A stretch of 48,081 nt of DNA from Pilasporangium apinafurcum (taxonomy: Eukaryota; Oomycota; Peronosporomycetes; Pythiales; Pythiaceae), in assembly GCA_001600495.1 (NCBI GenBank), contig BCKE01000085.1:67399-115479 (forward strand), given 5' to 3'. The notes under the pieces are model-generated. The model was not told where the DNA came from. It ran no database searches and saw nothing but the letters and a program-made list of their open reading frames with translations. Numbering within the stretch: position 1 is the first letter of the stretch; each line of letters starts with the position of its first letter. The translations under genes and the position numbers were made by a program. Positions 2,144 through 48,081 of this stretch are shown piece after piece.

Positions 2144-3228
2144 ATGACGACTGCCCACCGACCGACGTGGCATGCGGCCGTGGGCCAGAAGAACGAGGGT
2201 GGATGGCACGCAGGAGGTCTGTGCGCGTGTGTGTGTTTTCGCTTATCCCTATGAACAGAGGACTAGTATCTGAGCGGGTTTTTCTTGTTATTATGATGAT
2301 GAAATAGGTCAATTGACCCAACAATTCTCTGCACGAGATCTCCCAGGACATACGAAACTCAAGCTCAGGTGTGTTCAAAAGCTGAACATCACGCTTGGAG
2401 ATGGTAATCTATTTCAATTTCTCTTACGTGTATATATGGATGCGAAAAACAAAAACAGACAGGTGGGTCAAGGCACGGCGAATGAAGTAGAACTACGCGA
2501 TCTCCGTGCCGAATTGGAAGGCAAAGAAACCGAATATGAACTTGAGAAAGGAAAACAAAAAGACACCGCACGGGGTAAGGATGCTTGCTGGATTTTCTGT
2601 ATGAATCCTTCGTTTTTGTGTGAAAGGAATGACTTATCGCGGAAATCGAATTTGTGTTGACAGATAAATTGCGGCGACTAGAAGCGAACAAGAAATTGCT
2701 GCTTCTTGGTGACACTGAGGCAGATGCACGCGAATCTCAGTTGAAGAGTGTGGCCAGCAAATATGATGACACCGATGATGTGGACGATTCCGATGAGTCA
2801 AGTGACTCCGATAGTGACAGGTTGGGATAATCTTTGCAAGTTTGATGCCTATGCCTGTGTTCATTGTTCTGATAACCGCTCTCCTGATACTTATCTGATG
2901 AATGAAATGCAGTGATGATGACGATGAAGAAGCTGAATTGATGCGTGAATTGGAGAAAATCAAGAAGGAGCGCGAGGAAGAGCGGCTTCGGAAAGAAGAA
3001 GAAGAGCTGAAGGCTGCGGAACAACAAACACGTGATGAAATTCTCCAAGGTAATCCATTGCTGCAGGGCCAAACTACAGCGGGTAATGCCAAGATGAAGC
3101 GGCGCTGGAATGATGACGTGGTCTTTAAGAACCAGTCACGAAACGAACCAGAGCTAAAGAAGCGCTTTATCAACGACACGATTCGCAACGATTTCCACCG
3201 CCGGTTCCTCAACAAATATATCCAGTAA
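2144..3228 (+). CDS. CWC15: Pre-mRNA splicing factor Cwc15/Cwf15
   Basis: Five exons: 2144-2216, 2308-2368, 2459-2574, 2664-2820, 2913-3228, with all phases agreeing, give 240 aa. Cwc15 is a small, largely disordered component of the Prp19/NTC-associated catalytic spliceosome. The family hallmarks are visible. The N-terminus MTTAHRPTW is followed by QQFSARDLPGHTKLK, then a glutamate- and lysine-rich helix. An Asp/Ser-rich acidic stretch comes next. The conserved C-terminus contains KRRWNDDVVFKNQ and KKRFINDTIRNDFHRRFLNKYIQ (residues about 200-240). The start is the ATG opening the family N-terminus. Intron 2 (2369-2458) is a multiple of three without stops, so its retention would not break the frame. 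Length matches the family (about 230 aa). Confidence 0.93.
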
Positions 3229-3329
3229 ACTGATAAGACTGAGAGGTAGTTACCAAACAAAATGCTTGTTTTTCCATCATTATATATAAATGAAGAGCAA
3301 GAAGAATGGAACAGAGCTCTGATGAATAG

Positions 3330-19593: not shown

Positions 19594-20568
19594 TCACGCT
19601 ACCTCTTCATAGGAATCTTTGGCTCGAGATAGTAGCCGCATCATCGCAAAAGAGATCAAATGCGCAAAGAGCAATCCGGCATACCACAAAGGTGCCCAAG
19701 GCGTATCTAATTGCAAGAACGGATATGGCCAAAACCCCTGAGCAATCGTGCCGTGGAGAATCCACGTAAACACTGTGTACACAGTTGGCCAGGCGATCAC
19801 TAGCGGCAGCGCATTCACGGACACTGTATGCCGTGTGCTCATAAAATCAATTTGGAGTAGTAAGATGTTGATCCCATGCTGGCAGTAGCTGACCCAATTG
19901 AGGAGCAATTCCGGCTTGTTGATTTTTCTTGCGTAAGGATAGAGAATCGTCCACACCACGACGCCAATAAGAATGGACGTCGTAAGATACAAATCCAGCA
20001 TTAGATCCAAACGGACCCACCCGCGACGATGGATAGCTCCTGCAGGATAATGCAGAAAACTGCCGCTCTCTTCTAGGAGCGAAGCATATGCCGGTTGGTC
20101 CTGCCGTTTCTGCTGCTTCCAGAGTCGGTACGTTTGGCATGCAGCAACAATAAAGTATACGGCTTCGCCGATAAAATTCCAGGACGTATAGAACGCAAAA
20201 CATTGCCCACGAGTCCGATAAGCGTGGAAGCAAGTCACGAATACGAAGAAGATCACTACCACAACTCGATACCAGAGTAGCATGCGCAACGAACAGAACG
20301 GACGTGGCTGCAACAATGGTGACCGGGTCTGCATCGTATGTGGAGATGCATCGCTATCCAGAAGCAGCAACCTGTCGCGGCTCTTCCGATGATAAATCAT
20401 CCATATTGCCACAGATAAAGCGCTTAGAATTTCTAGAGACACGACAATGGTCTCCCAGGAGAGCACAAACGTTGGATGTACTCCTATTATCCATTCCATT
20501 TTGCTGTAAAGATTTGATGAAGAAAACGAAGAAGAAGAGCTCTCCACAAGAAAGTGCATCGAGCACAT
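19594..20568 (-). CDS. Multi-pass membrane protein
   Basis: Single frame; the first ATG at 20568 gives 324 aa. Six to eight hydrophobic segments are visible, including WETIVVSLEILSALSVAIWMIY, VVVVIFFVFVTCF, FIGEAVYFIVAACQTY, DLYLTTSILIGVVVWTILYPY, INILLLQIDFM, LVIAWPTVYTVFTWILHG and LWYAGLLFAHLISFAMM. Patterns such as FAFYTSWNFIGEAVYF and QHGINILLLQIDF recall the rolling-stone / FAR-17a-AIG1 membrane family, but I hold this only weakly. A Ser-rich N-terminus precedes the first segment, and no signal peptide is obvious. It is divergent from the TatD-RtcA fusion gene, 172 bp between starts, and convergent with the SUMO-like gene, 129 bp. Confidence 0.75.
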   Translation of the reverse strand: MCSMHFLVESSSSSFSSSNLYSKMEWIIGVHPTFVLSWETIVVSLEILSALSVAIWMIYHRKSRDRLLLLDSDASPHTMQTRSPLLQPRPFCSLRMLLWYRVVVVIFFVFVTCFHAYRTRGQCFAFYTSWNFIGEAVYFIVAACQTYRLWKQQKRQDQPAYASLLEESGSFLHYPAGAIHRRGWVRLDLMLDLYLTTSILIGVVVWTILYPYARKINKPELLLNWVSYCQHGINILLLQIDFMSTRHTVSVNALPLVIAWPTVYTVFTWILHGTIAQGFWPYPFLQLDTPWAPLWYAGLLFAHLISFAMMRLLSRAKDSYEEVA

Positions 20569-20740: not shown

Positions 20741-22861
20741 ATGGTCGACAAGATTATTGACATTGGTGCGAATTTGACGAATCGACAGTTCCAGAGAGAC
20801 TTACCACAAGTGCTGCGGCGTGCCGCGGATGCCGGTGTCGAAGCGATTGTGATCACAGGCACAAGCATGCGAGCGAGTCACGAGGCAATTGAATTGGTAA
20901 AGAAAGTCCAGCCAAAAGCCAAGCTGCAGCTGTTTTCCACTGTGGGTGTGCATCCGCATGATGCTAAGGACTTTGATGAAACACAATCGATTTTGGAGAT
21001 GCGGCAGTTCATTCAGAATAATCCCAATATAGTTGTGGCGATTGGAGAGTGTGGGTTGGATTTTAATCGCGATTATTCCCCTCGAGATGTCCAGGAGCGC
21101 GTGTTTCGGGCTCAAGTCGAGCTAGCATGTGAGCTGCAATTGCCACTATTTTTGCACGAACGTGAAGCGCATAGCACATTTATGTCGGTTCTGCAGCCGT
21201 TCCTGGAAGCGAAGCGCCTGCCACCGGTCGTGGTGCATTGCTTTACTGGCACAGAAAGCGAATTACGCAAGTACATTGCGATGGGATTTTATATTGGCGT
21301 AACAGGGTTTGTCTGCATGGATGCACGCGGATTTAAAGTGCGTTCGATTGCATCATTGATCCCAACGGACAAGCTCCTGATAGAGACCGACGCACCGTTT
21401 ATGTATCCTTATGGAGACAACGTTCGTAGGCGATGCGAACCCAAAGACTTGCGTGCTGTGGTGCAAACCCTTGCGAGTTGCTTTCGGCTCAGCCCTCCAG
21501 AGATTGCGGCGGTGACAACAAGAAATGCAAACCGTTTCTTTGACTTGGGAAAGCACGTTTCGCATCGATTAGCTGCTCAACATGAACAAAAGCAGTCGAA
21601 GTCATCTTACAAAGATATGGATGCTAGTACGTTTGCGAAGTCGGTTGCCACATCTTCTCTGATGGAAGAGAAGAAATTGGCTGCGTTTACGATGGATCTC
21701 ACAGATGCAATTGTCATTGATGGAAGCGAAGGAGAGGGAGGTGGACAGGTTATTCGTAATGCCTTGGCATTAGCCGCCATTCTCCGTAAGACTATTCGTG
21801 TCCACTCGATTCGTGGCAAGCGGAAAGCCCCGGGGCTCCGTAGCCAGCATCTCTGTACGGTGCGACTGGCTCAACAACTATCAGGAGGTGAGTTGGAAGC
21901 AGCATATTTGAGTTCTACAGAGCTCGCATTCAAAGGGAAAAGTGTCCCCGCCGGTGGAATCTACAAGGCTTCATCAGACACGGGAGGAAGCGTGTCATTG
22001 ATGATTCAAGGTTGTTTACCAATTATTATATACAGTATTGAACCCTGCAAACTGAATCTCCATGGTGGAACGAACGTCGCCTTTAGTCCGACGGTCGATT
22101 TCATGCAGATCCCGTTCAAAACTCTGCTTTCCCGTTTTGGCATTGATATCCAACTAAATGTCTTGAAGCGAGGGTTTTCCTCGAGTGATATAGGTGAAGT
22201 TGAGGTCATTGGAACGCCGGTGACTCAAGCATTGACAGCGGTCAATATTTGTGAGCCGTCCCTTTTGATTCAGAGAGTTTTTGCGCGCGTGACAGTGTGT
22301 GGACCAACCGCCGATGTAGTGACGGGTCAACATTATGTAAACGCCTTAAAGAGAGCATTCAAAAACTCCCTTGAACTTGGCCAAGACGCACATGTAGAAT
22401 GGGAAGTCGTTACTGAAGTCGCATCAACTAGGAATCGATTTTCTCGAGAAGGACGGAGCAAGAACCAGAAAGGCAATAAAGAAAGGAAGCCGAAGAAGAA
22501 CGCAGTGTCGATTATGGTCACGATAGAGACGAGTTCAGGAGGTATTTTGGCTGTTGACCGCACAGGAACAGACACACCAGACTATATGGCTCAGGAAATC
22601 GCGATTACGTTGCGTCAGCACGTTGCAAAGGGCGTCTGTATGGATGAACATCTTGCCGATAATGCGATTGTGTATATGGCTTTGGCAGCAGGAACGTCCA
22701 AAATTCGTGTACCAGCCAAGGCTGATCGGTGTTCAAATCATTTGGAAACGGCTCTAACGCTTGTGTCGGCGTTGACTGGTGCGACATATCGACTAATTGA
22801 AGATGGCACCACTGAACTGATAGAAGTCGATGGCATTGGATTCCAGCCAATAAATTCATAA
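20741..22861 (+). CDS. TatD-type nuclease fused to RNA 3'-terminal phosphate cyclase
   Basis: One uninterrupted frame, 706 aa from the ATG at 20741; the frame is open upstream from 20642 but without ATG. Residues 4-270 are TatD: IDIGANLT, VGVHPHD, GECGLDFNRDY (Glu103), FLHEREAH (His139), VHCFTG (His166) and LIETDAPF (Asp217), wording close to bacterial TatD, a metal-dependent 3'-5' DNA/RNA exonuclease. Residues about 277-320 are a charged linker. Residues 322-706 are RtcA, which converts RNA 3'-phosphate to 2',3'-cyclic phosphate using ATP: DGSEGEGGGQVIRNALALAA, GLRSQHL, SDTGGSVSLMIQ and HGGTN. The nucleotide-accepting His637 in DEHLADN is present, arguing for a cyclase rather than Rcl1. A Lys-rich insert lies at 564-587. 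The usual Gly-rich GGGEV motif is altered to SDIGEV. An ATG at 21692 could start a free cyclase. Confidence 0.92.
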   Translation: MVDKIIDIGANLTNRQFQRDLPQVLRRAADAGVEAIVITGTSMRASHEAIELVKKVQPKAKLQLFSTVGVHPHDAKDFDETQSILEMRQFIQNNPNIVVAIGECGLDFNRDYSPRDVQERVFRAQVELACELQLPLFLHEREAHSTFMSVLQPFLEAKRLPPVVVHCFTGTESELRKYIAMGFYIGVTGFVCMDARGFKVRSIASLIPTDKLLIETDAPFMYPYGDNVRRRCEPKDLRAVVQTLASCFRLSPPEIAAVTTRNANRFFDLGKHVSHRLAAQHEQKQSKSSYKDMDASTFAKSVATSSLMEEKKLAAFTMDLTDAIVIDGSEGEGGGQVIRNALALAAILRKTIRVHSIRGKRKAPGLRSQHLCTVRLAQQLSGGELEAAYLSSTELAFKGKSVPAGGIYKASSDTGGSVSLMIQGCLPIIIYSIEPCKLNLHGGTNVAFSPTVDFMQIPFKTLLSRFGIDIQLNVLKRGFSSSDIGEVEVIGTPVTQALTAVNICEPSLLIQRVFARVTVCGPTADVVTGQHYVNALKRAFKNSLELGQDAHVEWEVVTEVASTRNRFSREGRSKNQKGNKERKPKKNAVSIMVTIETSSGGILAVDRTGTDTPDYMAQEIAITLRQHVAKGVCMDEHLADNAIVYMALAAGTSKIRVPAKADRCSNHLETALTLVSALTGATYRLIEDGTTELIEVDGIGFQPINS

Positions 22862-22946: not shown

Positions 22947-24065
22947 CTATTTGCTTGTCTTTCGCTTCTTACTCGTGATGGATCCAGTACTACTACTACC
23001 TCTACGTTGTTGTTTCTCATTCAGAATCTTCGCGAGTGACTTCTTCGCCTCTTCTCCTTTGCTCCAGAACTGGCCATCACGTTGTCGGAAACTCGCTTTT
23101 GGCGCCCCCGCAACATCTAAATTGATGATCACCATGCGATCACCGATCTTCATGCCACTGCGCTTAGCAGCAGCAACCGCTTCTTCTTCCTTCGAGAACT
23201 CAACATAGCCAAAGCCCTTCAACTTTTTCGTGTGGTTCCACAGCGGTAGACGCACGCTTGTGATGGTTCCACAGTTCCCCAATGCGTCCCTGATAGTCTG
23301 TTCGTCGATTTCGTATGGAAGTTGTTTGATAAACACTGTTCGACATCCTTTGACGGCTTTCTTCACGCCTTTCTGTTCCTTCAGCGCCATCTCCACTACA
23401 CGCGGTGTCTCTGCTCGACGCACCGTCAAGTACCGACCAAAAAGATATTTACCGTCGAGATTCAGTGCTTTCTTGATAGAACTCTCGCTCTCAAACACCA
23501 CGTGCGCATAACCACGCGGTTTGCCTGAGTCTTGATATCTAGGCATGCGTACTTCCTTCACGATGCCACAGGACGCAAAGTGACTCACAAGGTCGCCCTC
23601 ATCTGCTTTATATGGAATGCCCTCAACGTACACAGTTGCTTCGGTTTTCTTTTCAATCTCAGCTTGCAAATTTTTTGTTTCAACCGACACCTCAGCTTCT
23701 TGCGGTTTACTATTGTTGTTCTTCTTCTCTGTGGATTTCGCAGATGCTGCTTGTTTCGTCATGGGTTGCTCATCCTCTGATTCTTCTTCTTCTTTATCAT
23801 CGTCATCACTTTCTGATTCTTCATTAGACGAACTGTCACTATCGCTACTGCCACTTTCTTTTTGCTTCACTGGAGCTGGACGGAAGAGCGCGTTCTCTGT
23901 TTCATCGTCGTCACTGTCACTCTCGGAATCTTTGTCGTCCTCATCGTCGTCGCTGCTGGAGCTGCTGGATGTCTGTTCCGCGTCTTTCTTTGCAGCAGAT
24001 GAAGCAGTCGCGTCTTCGTTTTCACGTTTGCGCTTCTTGGAACTTTGCTGTGCTGGTTTCGCCAT
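22947..24065 (-). CDS. Nucleolin-like protein with acidic N-terminus and two RRMs
   Basis: Single frame, 372 aa. Residues 1-140 alternate basic (KKRKREN), Ser/Asp/Glu runs and Lys-rich stretches, the layout of nucleolin and yeast Nsr1. RRM1 (about 142-220) shows RNP2 VYVEGIPY and RNP1 RGYAHVVF; RRM2 (about 243-318) shows RNP2 VFIKQLPY and RNP1 KGFGYVEF. The C-terminus is basic (GSITSKKRKTSK), a probable nuclear/nucleolar signal, instead of the RGG tail of animal nucleolin. Expected role is pre-rRNA processing in the nucleolus. Acidic Ser stretches fit CK2 sites. It is divergent from the CxxCxxCC/methyltransferase gene. Confidence 0.88.
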   Translation of the reverse strand: MAKPAQQSSKKRKRENEDATASSAAKKDAEQTSSSSSSDDDEDDKDSESDSDDDETENALFRPAPVKQKESGSSDSDSSSNEESESDDDDKEEEESEDEQPMTKQAASAKSTEKKNNNSKPQEAEVSVETKNLQAEIEKKTEATVYVEGIPYKADEGDLVSHFASCGIVKEVRMPRYQDSGKPRGYAHVVFESESSIKKALNLDGKYLFGRYLTVRRAETPRVVEMALKEQKGVKKAVKGCRTVFIKQLPYEIDEQTIRDALGNCGTITSVRLPLWNHTKKLKGFGYVEFSKEEEAVAAAKRSGMKIGDRMVIINLDVAGAPKASFRQRDGQFWSKGEEAKKSLAKILNEKQQRRGSSSTGSITSKKRKTSK

Positions 24066-24293: not shown

Positions 24294-25984
24294 ATGAACA
24301 TGCTACGAAGGAATACCAGTGGGCATCGACGTGCGCATTGTCTTCAGACAGGAGCGCTATTCTCCACGAAGCAACACCATACGCTGCTCCGCAACTGGAA
24401 GACGGATCGATCAGATGTGCAATTCCATTTCAAATGCACACAATGCGGCAAGTGTTGCACTGGGAAAGGTGGTCGCGTGCGTGTCAATGACCACGAGATG
24501 CGGGAAATTGCGCTTCTGAAGCGAATATCGTTGCAGGACGTGCAGCACAAGTTCATGAAGCATAGAGACAATCAATGGTGGCTGCGTCAGACAGCAGACG
24601 ATTCGCAATGTATCTTCCTGGACGGCAAGAAATGCTCCATCTATGCCGGTCAGTGCTATAGTATTCAATGTAACTATGCAGCATCTCTGCATGAAAAACA
24701 ATCTCTTACCGATATATTGCGATGAAAAGTAGCTCGACCAACCCAGTGCCGCACATTCCCGTGGTGGCCACAGCATGTGATCTCCGACTACGATTGGCAT
24801 CTTGCAGCCAAAGATTGCGAGGGTATTCGAGTCCCAGCACCAGATACTGATGATAGTGACGCATCCGACTATTCATTCCGAGATATTTCACCACATTTGA
24901 TTGTTCACGATGTACGAGTTTCCTTTATGTACTCGGTATGATGTGTTATGCGCTTATTTCTGAGTATATTCTGTGTCTATAGATCCATCGTTCCGGTGAG
25001 AATTTCACCCATAATGAGCTAGTAGAGATGCTCAATGATTTACAAGATGTCGACGAAGCATTCGTAGAGGAATACGAAAAGGAGTTTTTCGATAAGTATT
25101 CACGCCATATCGTCTATCAGGATGAGAAAGTGACGGTCATGGATACGTTCTTGGACGGTACAGCTCCATCACGATCTTTCTTCTTCAACGATCGCATGCA
25201 CTTGACGCAAAGCGAAGTCACACTACATAACAATATCACCAATAACAGTGATGATGCTACCGATGCTGTTATGCAATTTGATCGTTCAACGTTAACGCTG
25301 GATGTGCATCGCGGGATGTGCATCCCATTGCTATGGCTATCTCGTGGACAACCATTGAATATGGCAGTGATTGGATCGGGTGCGGCTTCATTACCACTTT
25401 TCCTGCTGGAACATCTGACAGAAATCGAGCGATTAGATGCAGTGGAGCCAAATGCCAAAGTCAATGCGATTGCGCGTGAGTTTTTTGGACTGAGTGACAT
25501 AGAGAAAGCCGATAGAAGACTATCGGTCTTTGAGCAATTTGGAGAAGAGTTTCTGGCGAACGTTTTTCGTGAGGCTCGGTACGATTGCATAATGATCGAC
25601 GTGGAAGCTGGTGGAAGTGAAGATGACGGTATTCAGGCACCGCCTTTGTCGATGCTCAGCACTGATTTTCTTAGTAAAACAAAACAAACCCTTACAGCCC
25701 GTGGAATTCTCATCATCAATGTGATCACGACCACTGATGAAGCTCTCAACCACGTAAAGACATGCCTGGGAACGGTGTTTTCAGACGGAGTCATCGTAAT
25801 GCTTCCTCGAAACTCAGTCTTCTGTGTATTTAACGATCCCGATATGGGTCCAGTAGAGTTGAATAAGCAGCAGTTGATCGAAGTGCTCCGTCAGCATCCG
25901 ATTCAAGCTCATCAAGCACGTACACCTGCGCTTCTTGAGTCTTCATCGTCTATCACCGTATCAAGTTGGGGGCGTTGGTCATAA
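24294..25984 (+). CDS. CxxCxxCC metal-binding (YkgJ-type) domain fused to METTL13-like methyltransferase
   Basis: Three exons, 24294-24648, 24730-24911 and 24983-25984, in phase, give 512 aa. Residues 1-40 are basic (MNMLRRNTSGHRR) and may target mitochondria. Residues 46-165 are a zinc/iron-chelating domain: FKCTQCGKCCTGKGG, then CIFLDGKKCSIYA joined across the first intron to VARPTQCRTFPWWP, the family's diagnostic string. Residues about 180-500 are a Rossmann methyltransferase with spermidine-synthase fold: FFFNDRMHLTQSEV, then AVIGSGAASLPLFL (SAM motif I, GSGAA at 310-314), LDAVEPN, YDCIMIDVEAG, APPLSMLSTDFL and GILIINV. This order and wording match the C-terminal methyltransferase half of METTL13, which methylates the N-terminus of eEF1A. 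Substrate here is unknown. An ATG at 24290 in another frame precedes the start by 4 nt. Confidence 0.86.
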
Positions 25985-32367: not shown

Positions 32368-34254
32368 TTAAAACTCATAGTGTTCGCCATCAGAGAGTGT
32401 TCGCCGTTCGCGTGCATCATCATGAACTTGGTCTGCCGACGATATTCTAAACGTATCACTTGGGCGGAAACTCTTATCTTCATCCACTCGGAATGTACCC
32501 GTCGATCGATTAGTCGACTGGAAATCGCTGCTGCTGTAGCCAAAGCTTTCGTCGACACCACGGAACCGAGGTGACTGCAGTGGCGCAGGACGTTGCACCG
32601 TGAAATCTACTGTACCCACCGAGGCGTCGGAGATACGACTTTCATCCAGAGGACGCATTGACTCGTCCGTGTCCCCACGTCCACGCCCGTACGTATCGTA
32701 ATCATTGATCGATGACATGTCTGATGCCCGCTCAAACGTATTCTGGTGGAGCGGATTAAACGGCTTTTGCAGGAAATGCGTATCTGAGTTATAGTCGATC
32801 GAAGTGCCCATGGACGTCTCGCTCTCGTACGAAGCAGGCATTGTGAATGGCTCAACTTCTGGATAATGATTGTCGTAGCCCATATATTCATCATTGGGCT
32901 TCATCATCATGTTGCCACCATTATGCACCGAGGACCCCTTAGATATGTTGGCAGGCACATGGTTGTTTTCGTTTTGGTATGAGCGTTGCATGAGGATCGT
33001 CGCGGGAGACCCAACGCCGCCACTGGCAGCTGGGTGATGATGGTCTCCAAAGAAGTCGCTGGCCTTAGGTGATTGTTGTGTGAACGATCCGGATGACGAC
33101 GCCGTTTTCTGTGGTACACGTTTGCTCACACGCTCGTGGAAACTCAGCGCACTGGCAGTCAACGCCGGCCCTTGACGGTATTCGGAATGATAACGGTAGT
33201 CCGACATGTGTTGTGAGGATGAAGATGGTGGCGGCGGATAGTGATGATCTTTCCACGATGGGTCAGTCGTGTCCGATGTCCAATCCAACTTGGCGTTCTT
33301 CGCGGTGTGTGTGGTCGTGAAGCCGCTATTCCGGAAATGGTCTGTATCCATGGGGTCCCGTTTCTTGCCCTTACAGAACACCACCGCTAGGATCACGACG
33401 ATGACGAACGCCACGCTACCACAGATCAGTCCGATCGTCGCACCGCTAGACAATCCACTGCTGGAGTCACTTGAGTCCTCTGATATCACAGTGGTTGTCA
33501 AGAACGCCATGAAATGATAACTCGAGTTTGCTGGGTTTGTTGGCGGCAAAATGATATGCGCAAAGACGTTAAATTCCCCTGCTGCATTAAATGCGATCCG
33601 TTGCCGGAAACTGGCCGAGTCATCCGTAAAATTCGATGTTTCCTGGTTCGTAATCTTCCGATTCGAGCCCGTGCGGAAGATATCGCACACCGATGTACTT
33701 GAGCATGTGTGGATATTCGCGTGCCCGATCTGCACCGGGTAACTGGTCTTACTGGTTTGGACGGTTGCCTGCAGTGAATCCATGTCGAAATTGTTGTCGT
33801 TCAGGTTCAACGTCGCGGTGAATGCATATTCGACGTCCTGTTTCGGAACGATATCACCCGTCGTGGCCTGGGTGAGCGAAAGTGTCAACGGACATTCCAG
33901 GTCTTTCCCTTCGGCGTGAACATATGTGAAATCCAGGTTCTCCACACTCATACCCTGGTCGAGCCAGTAGCAATAGGTCGTATCCCCATCGTACACATAA
34001 TCTGCATAGATACAATAGAGAGAGAGGGGAAGAAGAGAAAGTATTTTTTAGTCGATTTGTGTGTGTGAGAGAGAGACACCGCTTCTTTCGTTTTTTGGCT
34101 CAAGAATGGAAGCCATCAAACTGACAGACGATCACTCACCATAGAGCTCGAACGTGGTGGCATCGACAACGACCTGCAAATGAGGGAACGCCACGAGTAC
34201 AGCAGCAATAGCAATAGCGGTAGCAGCACATGAGCGGCGAGCGCACAGCGCCAT
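32368..34254 (-). CDS. Type I membrane protein, surface family paralogue 1
   Basis: Two exons on the minus strand, 34254-34140 and 34001-32368, give 582 aa. Exon 1 encodes a signal peptide (MALCARRSCAATAIAIAAVLVAFPH). The ectodomain (about 27-220) begins DYVYDGDTTYCYWLD and carries Cys49, Cys75 (ECPLTLSL), Cys138 and Cys144 (HTCSSTSVCDIF), then the conserved AAGEFNVFAHIILPP. A Ser-rich stalk leads to one membrane segment (225-247, ATIGLICGSVAFVIVVILAVV) and CKGKKRD. The cytoplasmic tail of about 330 residues is Ser/His/Pro/Tyr-rich without a kinase fold. The same layout occurs at 38528-39831 and 46620-48081. The family is not one I recognise. Receptor or adhesion role is inference. Confidence 0.85.
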
Positions 34255-35190: not shown

Positions 35191-36546
35191 ATGATGCAAT
35201 GGAAACTCGCACGCCGCTATGCCAGTGTGCTGGCAGGGATCGCTCTGATGGTCTGTGTCGGATCAAACCACTCAATTTCAGCATGGAACGCGCAGCTACA
35301 GTCGCTACTTCATTATTCGCAAGCTGAAATCTCGCTCGTTTGCTCGATGGCATCGTTTGGCGCCTACTTCTCAGTCACATCCGGATTCGTCTTCGACCAT
35401 CTTGGTGCGCACAATAGTGTCTTACTAGGTGGATTTCTTCTTTCCAGCATCTATTTCGGTCTCTATATTGGGATTGTCCAGTTTTCAGCTAGTATGCATG
35501 CAGTACCTGTTGGTGTGGTATTTGCAGTGCTGGGACAAGCCACGAATTTTGGTGTGTTTGCAGCGTTGGGTCCTAACGAAGGACTCTTCGGCGAAGAAAA
35601 CCGAGGCACCGTCATGGCAACGATACTTGCTGCATTCAGTGCTGGTGGGGCACTATTTGCGCTAATTTATGATCGCTTCTTTGATGAAAACGTGCCCGGC
35701 TTCTTTCAGTTCATGGCGGTGTTACTACTGGTGGTATTCATTCTCGCGTGGTTTACTCTATATCGTCCTACCAAAGATGAAAAAGACCATGGCATTGGTT
35801 TGAGCCACAAGCACATACTAGATGATTTCATGCCACCAGAACGAAGTGACAGTTATGAAGCCAACGAGGCAATTTCTTTGCAGCCTACGCCAGCCCAAAC
35901 TGATATCACCGGAAGAGAATTGCTCCACGACACGCGCTTTTGGTTGTTGTTCTTGACCGTGTTTATTCTCGTTGGTTCTGCGCTGTTTGTGATGGCGAAC
36001 ATCGCCTTTATTGTCGAGACGCTGGAAGGACCAATTGAGCAAGTTCCAGAGATGGTGGCACTCTTTTCTATCGGCAACTGCTGTGGGCGGCTCATTGCTG
36101 GAGTCGTTTCAGACTGCGTACTGGAGACTTTTCCACGCGTCTATTTTATCAGTGTGGCATCGGTGCTGGTAGCTGTAATCCACACATTGTTTTTGGTAAT
36201 CGCGCCTGCGTATTTGGTCGTCCCAATTACACTTTCAGGCATTGCAGATGGCATAATGTTTGCTGCGTTCCCTGTGCTCACGCGCGAAACATTTGGCGCG
36301 AAGCACTTTGGCAAGAACTTTGGTATGATGAGTGTCGCCAACGCCATCGGGTTCCCATTATTTTTTAATCCGCTCGGGTCATTTTTCTACAAACTCTCAG
36401 CGTCAGAGACAGTTGATGGAGTTAAGAAATGCATTGGTGCGCAATGCTTCCGTCCCATTTTCCTGCTCGTAATCTGTTTGAGTGCGGTGGCATTGCTTGC
36501 GAGTCTTAAGTTTGCCCGACGCCACCACTACAATGCATTGATTTAA
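35191..36546 (+). CDS. MFS transporter, nodulin-like/NFD4 type, copy 1
   Basis: Intronless, 451 aa, 12 predicted membrane segments in two sixes separated by a polar loop (about 190-235, with RPTKDEKDHGIG and DITGRELLHDTRFWLL). The start of each half carries family marks: GIALMVCVGSNHSISAWNAQL in the first, and GRELLHDTRFWLLF opening the second. PNEGLFGEENRGTVMA and GIMFAAFPVLTRETFG stand where the MFS gate motifs lie. The plant/oomycete nodulin-like group contains transporters of small solutes; the substrate is unknown. Copy 2 starts 112 bp downstream on the same strand and is clearly paralogous. No targeting signal is visible, so plasma or vacuolar membrane cannot be separated. Confidence 0.85.
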   Translation: MMQWKLARRYASVLAGIALMVCVGSNHSISAWNAQLQSLLHYSQAEISLVCSMASFGAYFSVTSGFVFDHLGAHNSVLLGGFLLSSIYFGLYIGIVQFSASMHAVPVGVVFAVLGQATNFGVFAALGPNEGLFGEENRGTVMATILAAFSAGGALFALIYDRFFDENVPGFFQFMAVLLLVVFILAWFTLYRPTKDEKDHGIGLSHKHILDDFMPPERSDSYEANEAISLQPTPAQTDITGRELLHDTRFWLLFLTVFILVGSALFVMANIAFIVETLEGPIEQVPEMVALFSIGNCCGRLIAGVVSDCVLETFPRVYFISVASVLVAVIHTLFLVIAPAYLVVPITLSGIADGIMFAAFPVLTRETFGAKHFGKNFGMMSVANAIGFPLFFNPLGSFFYKLSASETVDGVKKCIGAQCFRPIFLLVICLSAVALLASLKFARRHHYNALI

Positions 36547-36658: not shown

Positions 36659-37993
36659 ATGCCATTGAACATGAACAAGATGCCATCAAGGTTGCGCTCT
36701 GTCTTGAGCCTGTTCGCTGGTGTGGTGATCATGATTGGCGTCGGTTCCATCTACGCACTGTCAGCATGGAACGCGCAGCTGAAGGCACAATTACAGTATT
36801 CACAAGCGGGCATTGCGACGGTTTCCTCCATGACAATGCTCGGATCCTACATGTCCTATTTCCCAGGCATTCTCTTCGATCGCCTGGGACCATACAACAG
36901 CATTCTACTGGGTGGTATTGGACTAGCGTGGACCTATTGGGTAATGTTTATGGCGTTGATGTATTACCCAACGCTTGTCACTCCAGTATTACTCGGCTCC
37001 TGTTTGATGCTGGTTGGTGTGCTTAGTGCGTTTTGCATTTTCTCGTCGATCGTGCCGAACGAAGGGCTCTTTGGTGCCGCAAATCGCGGTAAAGTCATGG
37101 CGTTGTTGACATCGGCGTATAGCTGCGGTGGCGCACTGTTTGCGTTTATTTATCATGCAGCGTTTAGTGGTGACGTTGGGGGTTACTTTTGCTTTGTCGG
37201 TGGATTTCTCTTGGTGGTGTGTCTCTTCGGTTGGTGTACATTTGTACAGGCAAAAGACCAACGACGATTGAGTTACGAGATCATCGACGGCAATGCAGGT
37301 GTAGCATTGGATGACAAGACCGAGCTCATCACAGACACTAATGATGTGACAGGCATTGAGTTGCTGACCGATGGTCGTTTTTGGCTACTCTTTGTCCAGG
37401 TGCTGATCGTCATTGGGGCGGGACTCCTTGTGATGTCCAACGTTTCGTTCATTGTGGAATCGCTCAGTGGCCCAATGGACCAAGTTCCGATTATGGTAGC
37501 GTTATTTTCAGCAAGCAACACTATTGGTCGGTTAGCGACAGGAGCGGCATCTGATCATATGCTGCCCTGGTACCCTCGCGCCTACTTCCTTGGATTATCC
37601 GCGTTACTCACGGCAATCACGCATGTCGTATTCCTGACCATTCCGTCGAGCATGCTGGCGATACCTGTGGTCATGGCTGGATTATCAGAAGGGATTATGT
37701 TTGGTTGCTTCCCTGTGATTCTCCGGGAAACGTTTGGCTTAAAGCATTATGGGAAGAACTATGGGCTTCTCAGCCTCGCGAATTGTATCGGCTATCCATT
37801 GATCTACAGTCCATTGTCTTCTTTTGTGTATCAACGCGCAGCTGTAGCAAACGGCGAGAAAAAATGCTTTGGTGACGCCTGCTTTCGACCGATGTTTCTT
37901 TTGGTTATCCTACTGTGTGGGTTTACGCTGATTTGCTGCCTCAAGTTAATTCAAATACAACAGCGACACCTTCGCTACCAACGAATTCCATGA
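36659..37993 (+). CDS. MFS transporter, nodulin-like/NFD4 type, copy 2
   Basis: Intronless, 444 aa, 12 membrane segments. It is collinear with copy 1: GVGSIYALSAWNAQLKAQLQYSQA, PNEGLFGAANRGKVMALL, DVTGIELLTDGRFWLLF, DQVPIMVALFSASNTIGRL and EGIMFGCFPVILRETFGLKHYGKN. The central loop is shorter and has a different acidic sequence (DDKTELITDTND). The C-terminal tail is basic (QIQQRHLRYQRIP). It arose by tandem duplication with copy 1, followed by considerable divergence, so substrate or expression may differ. The ATG at 36659 is used; later in-frame Mets at residues 5 and 8 are alternatives. Confidence 0.85.
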   Translation: MPLNMNKMPSRLRSVLSLFAGVVIMIGVGSIYALSAWNAQLKAQLQYSQAGIATVSSMTMLGSYMSYFPGILFDRLGPYNSILLGGIGLAWTYWVMFMALMYYPTLVTPVLLGSCLMLVGVLSAFCIFSSIVPNEGLFGAANRGKVMALLTSAYSCGGALFAFIYHAAFSGDVGGYFCFVGGFLLVVCLFGWCTFVQAKDQRRLSYEIIDGNAGVALDDKTELITDTNDVTGIELLTDGRFWLLFVQVLIVIGAGLLVMSNVSFIVESLSGPMDQVPIMVALFSASNTIGRLATGAASDHMLPWYPRAYFLGLSALLTAITHVVFLTIPSSMLAIPVVMAGLSEGIMFGCFPVILRETFGLKHYGKNYGLLSLANCIGYPLIYSPLSSFVYQRAAVANGEKKCFGDACFRPMFLLVILLCGFTLICCLKLIQIQQRHLRYQRIP

Positions 37994-38527: not shown

Positions 38528-39831
38528 ATGATTCCGAGGTGGAAAGCTGCACAGATTCTCCTACTCAGTCTGTGCTTCGGCATCGTGCTCTCACATGCTG
38601 CAACAGATGACCTCGGTATGTCATCGTCTTCGCAATTAATTCTTTTGCTTATCCTGCTCACTGAATCTGATCAATGTGTCTATGCATCAGTATAGATGTC
38701 GACAAGTTTGATGGTGAGACTACCTTCTGCTGGGGTCTGCACGCTAGTGTCTCCAGTAGCGAAGTCACAGAACAGCAACTGTTTGCGAGTGGTTCGAATA
38801 CACAATGTCCATTGTCGCTCGCTTTCGTCCAAGATAACAAGAAATCATACACCGTGAACGAAAAAATACCTTTGATGTGGATGACAACGATGAATGAAAC
38901 CAATAACGCTGTTTTCAGCGCTCGAAACGCTGCCGTCTTCGTCGATTCGACTACTGGTGACCCTGTTTCAACTATTTTTACCAACATCTACGCTTTTAAT
39001 GACGACAAGACATGTAGTTTGTTTGCGAATGACCTCGAGAAACGAAATATCTCGCTGTTACAGGACGGCACGCTCGTTCAATCGAACGGCAAGAATGTGA
39101 CCTTCACCGCCACCGACGTCTCGTTCCAGACAGCAGGCTCCTATTTCCTTATGGCTCACGTTATTTTACCCAGCGCCAAGACCTCCGAACGCTTTGATTT
39201 CGCAGCATTCCTCTCCATCACCATCGAAGACAATGTCGCGCAGGAAGCAACAGAACAACCACAAATCAAGAACGAAAGCTCTTCGTCCGAAAGTAGCGTG
39301 TTGGGGATGTCGGTGCTACAGTTCACGCTCATCGTGGTGTTTGTTGTCGTCACGATCATATGTGTTATCATCATGGTCATCATGATCGTTCAACGTCGGC
39401 GGCAACAATCGAAGTTGAAAAGCACATGTGTAGCGTCTACACGTATCACTGGAGAATCTCAAGGACGATTTTCGGATTGGTGTGACCTCCTCTCTGTCAC
39501 ACAAGAGCGTGACCAGATCGTAGCATCCAGCACAGAGGGCGAAAACAGCAATAATTTGGCAATTTTACGCGCTAGCTGCGCATCTTCGTCCTGTTCATCG
39601 CTCTCACCGCACTATCATAAACGGAAAGTCGCGGATTTCACGAGAGACATCGCGCGGTGGGACCTGCGGCCATCAGCATCGCCAATCACACCGAGTAGTA
39701 GTCTCTTTCTGCGTGATATCTCGCCTATTGATGGCTTTGTGCCATTGGAAACGCTTGGTGACCGCTCTCGAGTCAATGAGGGGCTCCAAGCAGTGTCCAG
39801 TTCCGAGGATGAGCAGGAAATCGATGTTTAA
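38528..39831 (+). CDS. Type I membrane protein, surface family paralogue 2
   Basis: Two exons, 38528-38615 and 38696-39831, give 407 aa. Signal peptide is MIPRWKAAQILLLSLCFGIV to about residue 25. The ectodomain begins DVDKFDGETTFCWGLH (Cys41) and has QCPLSLAF (Cys67), KTCSLFANDLEK (Cys136), NVTFTATDVSFQTAGSYFLM and AHVILPS. The second Cys of the CxxxxxC pair found in the other two paralogues is missing here. One membrane segment lies at 237-261 (FTLIVVFVVVTIICVIIMVIMI), then RRRQQSK. The tail is short, about 145 residues, Ser-rich, ending in acidic SSEDEQEIDV. The acceptor ...CAGTATAG was chosen over an earlier CAG because only it keeps phase. Confidence 0.82.
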
Positions 39832-46619: not shown

Positions 46620-48081
46620 TCACAGTTCTACATTGAGTTTAAGTTTACCTATCTTGCGCGTATCCAGATCACGCAAGCTCAAGTCATTAAAAGCGCTTTC
46701 GTCCAATTGAGGCGCGCGGTCAGAATCAGTGAAAATGATCCGAGACGACGCATCGGAATTCGTAGTGAAAAGGTTGGATGACGCATTCGATTGGTTCCCC
46801 GTATCACGGTCAGCGTAAGAGTCTCCCGATCGTCTCGAGACGTAAATGTCGTCATCTGAACCGTACTGATCTGTAGACGTTGTGTCGATAATCCCCATCG
46901 ATCGATCTGATTCTGGGTACACAAACTGACCCGTTGTGTATCCTGTGTCCATAATATCCAGCGAGCGATCCGTATTCGTAAATATAAAGTCCACAGTGTT
47001 TCTGGAATCAAAAATATTTGGTGCAGGCTGGTTTCCACCCCCTGGGTTCGGTGGAGGAACGAATCCATAGCTTTTCGTTTCGTCATATGACGAGACACTA
47101 TCCATCTTTCGCATTCCTGGTGGTAGTCGCTCTTCCATCGGTCGTGGATAATTTTGTTGAGAAACGTCGGAACTGGATAAATAGCGCACATACGGTGCTG
47201 GCTTCGGAATTCCAAGTCTTTGTCCATCGAGTACTGGAATGTCTTCAGCGAGAGTAAATGTTTTCTCGAGAGCGGGTCGTTGTGGTGGTCGTTGAGGTGG
47301 TCGCTCTAGGTCCGCGCTAGAGCCTGTTTTCTTGCTTTTCTTCCAAAACATCACAGAAAGAACCGTCAACGCAGCTGCGATAACAGCACCAATAATAATC
47401 AAGATCACCACCGTGGTAGATAGCCCACCAGAACCTGATGACATTGCAGTCGTCGCTGTAGAGGTTTCATTCACAGTAAGTTGCTGGTACACCACATAGT
47501 CAAAGCGTTCTTGGTCAGTGAAGCCTGGGAGAATGACGTGTGCGAAGACAGAAAACACCCCCGCTTTGGTGTAAGTCAGCTCTCCTGTTGAAGCAAACAC
47601 GATTTGATCGTTCGTGAAGTTACCCACACGGTTGGCAGTGTTGTCAACATAATCGGTTCCCATACGAAATGGATCACAATTCGATCCAAAGAGACACGAA
47701 TGAATCCCGGAGCGGATTATATCAACCAGTTTTCCTGTATTTTGATCGATTGTGCGGTAATATTCGTCATCATCTACCGCATTTTTCTTGAGGCGCGACC
47801 GTTCCAGCGTCACTGTCCACGTCACTGGTATAAACTCCCCCACGGTCACGTTTGTCTTCTTCAAATCTAAGATTATCGACACTGGACAACCTTCACCTTC
47901 ACCTGATAAGACAGCATTCGACCAATTGCTTATCGTGTCTTCATAAGATTGTGGGATCCACCAACAATATGTTGTGTTGCCGTCGTGCGTGTAACTCGAT
48001 GTCAGCGCTTGTGTCTTGTTTACCATCGACAGGGTAAGCAATATTACTGTGACAGCAATAGTAGCACACCGATTGTTAAAG
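46620..48081 (-). CDS. Type I membrane protein, surface family paralogue 3 (5' end beyond window)
   Basis: Partial at the right edge: the frame is open through base 48081 with no definite start, and reads ...CATIAVTVILLTLSMVNKTQA, part of a signal peptide. The ectodomain begins SSYTHDGNTTYCWWIP, then GCPVSIIL, WTVTLERSRLKKN, HSCLFGSNCDPFRMG and AGVFSVFAHVILPG, matching paralogue 1 and keeping all four Cys. One membrane segment (VVILIIIGAVIAAALTVLSVMFW) is followed by KKSKK. The tail of about 235 residues is rich in Asp/Ser/Tyr/Pro, with a repeated motif of the type IFTNTDRSLDIMDTGYTTGQ / YPESDRSMGIIDTTSTDQ / IIFTDSDRAPQLD, a feature partly shared with the tail of paralogue 1 (SFGYSS, VDEDKSFRPSD). 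Convergent with the IQ/WW gene, 153 bp apart. Confidence 0.85.
   Translation of the reverse strand, partial: FNNRCATIAVTVILLTLSMVNKTQALTSSYTHDGNTTYCWWIPQSYEDTISNWSNAVLSGEGEGCPVSIILDLKKTNVTVGEFIPVTWTVTLERSRLKKNAVDDDEYYRTIDQNTGKLVDIIRSGIHSCLFGSNCDPFRMGTDYVDNTANRVGNFTNDQIVFASTGELTYTKAGVFSVFAHVILPGFTDQERFDYVVYQQLTVNETSTATTAMSSGSGGLSTTVVILIIIGAVIAAALTVLSVMFWKKSKKTGSSADLERPPQRPPQRPALEKTFTLAEDIPVLDGQRLGIPKPAPYVRYLSSSDVSQQNYPRPMEERLPPGMRKMDSVSSYDETKSYGFVPPPNPGGGNQPAPNIFDSRNTVDFIFTNTDRSLDIMDTGYTTGQFVYPESDRSMGIIDTTSTDQYGSDDDIYVSRRSGDSYADRDTGNQSNASSNLFTTNSDASSRIIFTDSDRAPQLDESAFNDLSLRDLDTRKIGKLKLNVEL

Follow-up and report, generated by a model that had tools for sequence, protein, structure and literature searches.

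A predicted TatD-RtcA fusion protein in Pilasporangium apinafurcum, an oomycete whose genome yields no match to RtcB

The locus and its open reading frame

The window considered here is a 48,081-nucleotide stretch of Pilasporangium apinafurcum DNA (assembly GCA_001600495.1, contig BCKE01000085.1). An open reading frame runs from ATG to TAA over 706 codons at 20741-22861 (+); it has no internal stop, uses the standard code, and requires no intron. The original prediction, made from the letters alone, had called an uninterrupted 706-codon frame, and both its coordinates and its length are exact. The stop-free frame around the gene amounts to 741 codons. Pfam finds two domains in the 706-aa product, TatD_DNase at residues 6-267 (20756-21541, +) and RTC, the domain of RtcA (RNA 3'-terminal phosphate cyclase), at residues 331-684 (21731-22792, +), and no third family at an E-value of 0.001. 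We refer to this ORF as the TatD-RtcA fusion.

The nearest ORFs are a divergent one with a FAR-17a/AIG1-like match (19594-20568), 172 bases from the fusion gene, and a convergent one for an RRM protein (22947-24065), 85 bases from it. Both lie nearby on the opposite strand, which leaves little space for a further gene boundary outside the frame. No tRNA genes were found in the window. The second ORF along from the fusion gene (24294-24725, +) carries a zinc- or iron-chelating domain of the CxxCxxCC type (E = 9e-9).

The TatD-type half

The match of the N-terminal half to TatD_DNase is strong (217.7 bits against a cut-off of 27, E = 2.2e-64), and its identity to Escherichia coli TatD is 42-45%. 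By sequence, the best solved relatives are E. coli 1xwy (E = 2e-61) and 4p5u (E = 5e-61). The domain has the Group I signature, with an N-terminus that reads DIGANLT and no HxH pair of the Group II kind. At all seven of the active-site positions checked (H71, H73, E103, H139, H166, E215, and D217), the residue is the same as in E. coli TatD (H62, H64, E91, H127, H152, E201, and D203, positions named in the accessible text of PMC4176340), so the TatD domain with metal ligands that was originally proposed is borne out. The NCBIfam cut-offs, which were designed to name bacterial and archaeal proteins, are missed both for the equivalog model NF007745 (251.9 versus 395 bits) and for the subfamily model TIGR00010 (181.6 versus 206 bits). 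On these profile scores, the N-terminal half is a TatD-type domain and not a certified equivalog. It shares the TIM-barrel fold and the seven checked active-site positions with E. coli TatD and human TATDN1; unlike them, the fusion protein carries an extra C-terminal RtcA-type domain and misses the NCBIfam TatD cut-offs.

The Group I TatD of E. coli is described as digesting single-stranded DNA and RNA from the 3' end, with low activity in vitro (PMC4176340). Within the family, the roles that are better supported concern DNA, namely oxidative damage and AP endonuclease activity (PMC4176340; PMC10085689, as far as the accessible text of each goes). The TatD part of the fusion may thus have no contact with RNA in vivo.

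The RtcA-type half

The C-terminal half matches the Pfam RTC family with 205.1 bits (cut-off 27, E = 1e-60), and its best solved relatives by sequence are the RtcA proteins of Pyrococcus (4o89, E = 4e-31) and E. coli (1qmh, E = 5e-31). In the alignment to E. coli RtcA, identity is 31%. The codon for His667 (22739-22741, +) aligns with the catalytic His of the E. coli enzyme, His308 of the translated record and His309 in the customary numbering. We compared ten positions, presumably the catalytic His together with residues of the ATP and metal sites, and nine are the same as in E. coli (E332, R339, R358, R361, Q369, H370, Q423, D640, and H667), in agreement with the prediction of an RtcA domain that retains its catalytic His. 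The tenth differs, being Asn641 in place of the E. coli Gln, beside the conserved Asp.

As with the first half, the profile for the named protein is not reached: the NCBIfam RtcA equivalog model TIGR03399 gives 220.7 bits against a cut-off of 250.05. The TatD and RtcA models are the best NCBIfam models for their respective halves, both below their equivalog cut-offs, and the model for Rcl1 gives the fusion protein only 77.6 bits (cut-off 227.95). The C-terminal half, judged by these scores, is an RtcA-type domain and not a certified equivalog. In common with the E. coli and Pyrococcus enzymes, it has the RtcA fold and the catalytic His. It is unlike them in lying behind a TatD domain, in having lost the RGFYPxGGG turn, in its Lys-rich divergent insert, and in that no RtcB partner gene was found in the genome. 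With Rcl1, an inactive cyclase homologue involved in 18S rRNA biogenesis, it shares the superfamily; unlike Rcl1, the fusion protein is matched far better by the RtcA model and retains a catalytic His, and the genome has its Rcl1 as a separate gene on another contig (C32).

The extent of divergence can be gauged by comparison with 81 prokaryotic RtcA sequences (80 loci plus E. coli). It is important to note that two peptide patterns from the beginning of the domain were used to select the 80 loci, which means that some columns (10 of 46 and 7 of 22, in the two sets that follow) are conserved partly by selection. Among the 46 columns that are at least 90% conserved, the fusion keeps 33 and differs in 13; outside the picking patterns, 24 of 36 are kept and 12 differ. 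Where conservation rounds to 100%, 20 of 22 columns are kept (13 of 15 outside the patterns). The RGFYPxGGG turn and several glycines are among what has been lost. In a tree of the fusion domain and prokaryotic RtcA, the end branch of the fusion is 3.21, versus a median of 0.46, and given this very long branch and the unsure placement we claim no origin for the domain. The Pfam RTC_insert family was not detected in the fusion protein; a divergent insert subdomain, predicted to be alpha/beta, is modeled at residues 510-597 (22268-22531, +). With so divergent an RtcA part, and both halves under their equivalog cut-offs, the activities are not assured.

Structure model, linker, and coding signal

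An AlphaFold model of the fusion protein, computed from a 31-row alignment (the fusion protein, 28 of the 80 RtcA loci, and two TatD pieces), has a mean pLDDT of 81.2 and a pTM of 0.59. The pLDDT falls below 50 at residues 1-4, 218-232, 281-315, and 566-581. The third of these stretches is the linker (21581-21685, +), which is rich in Ser, Lys, and Ala and predicted to be disordered, and the last is a Lys-rich stretch inside the insert subdomain. When this one model was compared with the PDB using Foldseek, it matched RtcA 1qmh (E = 3e-31, TM-score 0.90 normalized by target) and TatD 4p5u (E = 4e-21, TM-score 0.85, likewise normalized by target). By predicted fold, then, both halves resemble complete enzyme domains. 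A viral fold library gave one match below an E-value of 0.001, an uncharacterized Yasminevirus protein.

We also scored coding potential, using a codon table drawn from 11 long ORFs elsewhere in the window, themselves putative, and obtained in-frame values of 0.199 bits per codon for the linker and 0.224 for the TatD part (other frames negative). For the RtcA part, the in-frame values are 0.162 (residues 323-560) and 0.183 bits per codon (residues 596-706), again with the other frames negative. The Lys-rich residues 561-595 score -0.034 in frame, and the other two frames are lower there (-0.208 and -0.248).

Two features of the linker region deserve mention. An internal in-frame ATG (Met318; 21692-21694, +) lies immediately ahead of the RtcA fold and is possibly a relic of a formerly separate RtcA start. 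In addition, a 78-nt stretch at 21627-21704 (+) resembles an intron, with GTACGT, CTGAT, and CACAG in order. Scanning the ORF for GTRNGT, CTRAY, and YAG, an oomycete-like intron pattern, gave two candidates, where 500 codon-shuffled copies average 0.99, and one of them (21627-21704) preserves the frame, where the shuffled copies average 0.40. The linker signal is not clearly above chance on this comparison, and, because 78 is a multiple of three, splicing would still leave the fusion in frame. We therefore rejected the reading of the locus as a split gene. The open frame, the coding signal in the linker, and the frame-keeping nature of the intron candidate together lead us to accept the fusion provisionally as one protein.

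RtcB, RNA ligation genes, and paralogs in the genome

The genome (36.47 Mb) was searched with profiles, exon by exon. RtcB (PF01139) and archease (PF01951) gave no matches in the whole 36.5-Mb genome, a search that a gene in small exons could escape. The same two profiles match 9 and 6, respectively, of 14 control genomes, of which the named ones are prokaryotic. The genome does have a match to the 2'-phosphotransferase Tpt1 (E = 1e-58) and two matches (exons) to tRNA-splicing endonuclease. A 559-codon frame on contig C33 (locus L014, 865-2544, -) matches DUF7920 (E = 1e-11) and RNA_lig_T4_1 (E = 6e-7), with no other Pfam domain at an E-value of 0.01 and no NCBIfam match; it is possibly an unusual RNA ligase, and a weak candidate. 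The combination of Tpt1, an RNA_lig_T4_1 candidate, and splicing endonuclease, with no RtcB found, favors RNA ligation of the 5'-phosphate type in this organism, which would also require a kinase and a cyclic phosphodiesterase.

RTC-family matches occur at two places, the fusion gene and the Rcl1 gene on C32, which has at least two exons, both scoring best on the Rcl1 model. No RtcA-type domain other than the cyclase of the fusion was found in this genome. Beside the Rcl1 gene (locus L006, ~3210-3287, +) is a frame that terminates in IRLYPTQSQREKLEQMFATNRAVYNK and resembles, by its motif, the start of a TnpB/Fanzor-type protein. Five TatD-family matches lie at four places (the fusion gene and contigs C9, C12, and C7). 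The one on C9 is a stand-alone relative, 46-48% identical over the compared part, and its gene, read by eye, probably has a 75-base intron. Genome size, the split Rcl1 gene, and this probable intron mark the genome as eukaryotic.

Searches for the same architecture elsewhere

The 80 prokaryotic RtcA loci were retained from at least 513 relatives among at least 594 pattern matches, with flanks of up to 5 kb and many short contigs. Searching them with two TatD queries (tblastn, E-value 1e-3), we found TatD in the RtcA frame in none of the 80. A TatD-like stretch was present near RtcA in two (L017 and L019), ~3.6 and 3.9 kb off and distant in sequence (25-27% identity), and absent from the other 78 within flanks that are up to 5 kb and in many cases shorter. 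The six loci with the longest frames contain the Pfam RTC and insert domains and nothing else. On the 80 loci examined, we set aside a prokaryotic origin of the fusion. Records that match the fusion protein exist among phages (35) and plasmids (144), and none of either covers 80% of it. Viral contigs gave nothing for the whole fusion protein, in what was a weak test based on exact peptide patterns from one sequence, and one TatD-like locus when the TatD alignment was used instead. These prokaryote, phage, plasmid, and viral collections are ill-suited for finding a eukaryotic fusion, and the suggestion that the architecture is unseen in other lineages holds within that scope: it stands for prokaryotic RtcA loci, phages, plasmids, and viral contigs.

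Among the open-licence papers listed in our literature searches, none concerned a TatD-RtcA fusion. PMC12699882, which mentions both TatD and RtcA, has no such fusion in its accessible text. A study of Phytophthora gives 273 lineage-specific novel multidomain fusions in P. sojae, with orthologs in P. ramorum (PMC2705460). Its main text, as accessible, contains no DNase- or nuclease-words and no "phosphate cyclase." The TatD-RtcA architecture may already be present in its Table S1 or in a domain database.

A possible role in RNA end processing

The product of the fusion gene is most likely a real bifunctional RNA-end enzyme. The fuller explanation that we prefer, and hold with moderate confidence, is that it is a genuine bifunctional nucleic-acid-end enzyme, both domains of which would work on 3' ends left when RNA is broken or cleaved, and that it does not feed RtcB. 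It would consist of a metal-dependent 3'-5' exonuclease of the Group I TatD type at the N-terminus, a flexible linker of ~40-50 residues, and an ATP-dependent RtcA-type cyclase at the C-terminus, with the two domains offering alternative or successive fates for an RNA 3' end. The cyclase would convert 3'-phosphate ends to 2',3'-cyclic phosphates, acceptable to 5'-phosphate ("heal and seal") ligation with Tpt1, and the RNA so cyclized would be kept for ligation. The nuclease would remove single-stranded 3' tails that lack a phosphate or are damaged, or ends beyond repair. RtcB had no match in the genome and would not be supplied by the fusion enzyme.

The order of events first imagined, in which TatD trims and RtcA then cyclizes, looks doubtful. 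In the crystal structure of human TATDN1, a nucleoside 5'-monophosphate occupies the active site (PMC10085689, accessible text), from which the trimmed strand should end in a 3'-OH. The primary, preferred substrate of RtcA is a 3'-phosphate RNA end, according to the accessible part of PMC13247085. TatD would thus not make the substrate of its partner, and, unless a phosphate were added, the sequence of reactions is probably unworkable chemically. Possibly the two domains are coupled in another way, each offering a different fate to an RNA end, with one or the other being chosen.

Several other accounts of the locus have to be weighed against the bifunctional RNA-end enzyme. A possible one, and not far behind it, is a fusion without catalytic coupling, in which the shared gene would provide co-expression or co-localization, the TatD part would serve DNA repair or proteostasis, and the RtcA part would serve RNA repair. 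Functionally related enzymes are often found fused, which counts against this. The long disordered linker and the pTM of 0.59, which give no hint that the domains are held in a set orientation, are in its favor, as are the 80 prokaryotic RtcA loci, 78 of which have no TatD-like stretch within flanks of up to 5 kb (many shorter) and two of which have a distant one. The literature cuts both ways: TatD proteins work on DNA and AP sites (PMC10085689), but E. coli TatD also digests single-stranded RNA (PMC4176340), to the extent that the accessible text of each describes this. It is also conceivable, although we consider it unlikely, that the cyclase half has given up RNA cyclase chemistry, like the related Rcl1, and serves the nuclease as an RNA-binding or scaffold module. 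The 13 differing columns of 46 (the RGFYPxGGG turn among them), the insert that Pfam does not detect, the long branch, the score below the RtcA equivalog cut-off, and the Gln-to-Asn change beside the conserved Asp all point that way. Set against them are the nine retained positions, His667 included, and a preference for the RtcA over the Rcl1 model (220.7 versus 77.6 bits) that is the opposite of what the Rcl1 gene of this genome shows in both of its exons.

The pathway of the original prediction, in which TatD exposes an end, RtcA cyclizes it, and RtcB ligates it, draws on the presence of both domains and on the adjacency of rtcA to rtcB in E. coli. It is weakened by the lack of any match to RtcB or archease in the genome, and indeed contradicted unless an RtcB gene in fragments escaped the search; the expected mismatch between a 3'-OH product and a 3'-phosphate substrate is a further difficulty. 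We regard it as very improbable. Even less credence goes to an annotation artifact, with two genes merged by a sequencing error, an assembly join, or a hidden intron. Met318 and the consensus-like intron candidate in the linker would fit such a merger, but the frame is open, the linker has coding signal, the TatD part has no stop of its own, the intron candidates are not clearly above the shuffled expectation (with the linker one keeping the frame), and the flanking ORFs, both nearby, run on the opposite strand.

Returning to the bifunctional RNA-end enzyme, a bolder version of it can be put forward tentatively: the fusion could be an undescribed eukaryotic RNA-repair enzyme, conserved in its lineage, in which TatD and RtcA decide the fate of 3' ends without RtcB, and RtcA serves the 5'-phosphate route (ligase plus Tpt1). 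RtcA is found in bacteria, archaea, and eukaryotes, and its natural job is unsettled. Its physiological function was termed unknown in 2012 (PMC3400036), and a 2026 review considers it mainly a modulator of RtcB reactions (PMC13247085), as far as the accessible parts of these sources go. A genome with a single RtcA-type domain, fused to a nuclease, and with RtcB seemingly absent would be a natural test for RtcB-independent work of RtcA. If the protein is indeed an RNA-repair enzyme in an RtcB-less organism, RtcA would have a role that is independent of RtcB; and if the fusion is conserved across a lineage, the partner domain would hint at which RNA ends RtcA handles.

Other ORFs of the window

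Elsewhere in the window are several ORFs that look like membrane proteins. Those at 38674-39831 (+) and 46620-48026 (-) have a common region with 26% identity over 177 residues, for which there is no Pfam match above the cut-off, and the ORF at 32368-33951 (-) is perhaps a third member of this family, given a resemblance noted by eye. Two adjoining ORFs at 35191-36546 (+) and 36659-37993 (+) are transporter-like and, again by eye, alike, and this pair is probably a tandem duplication.
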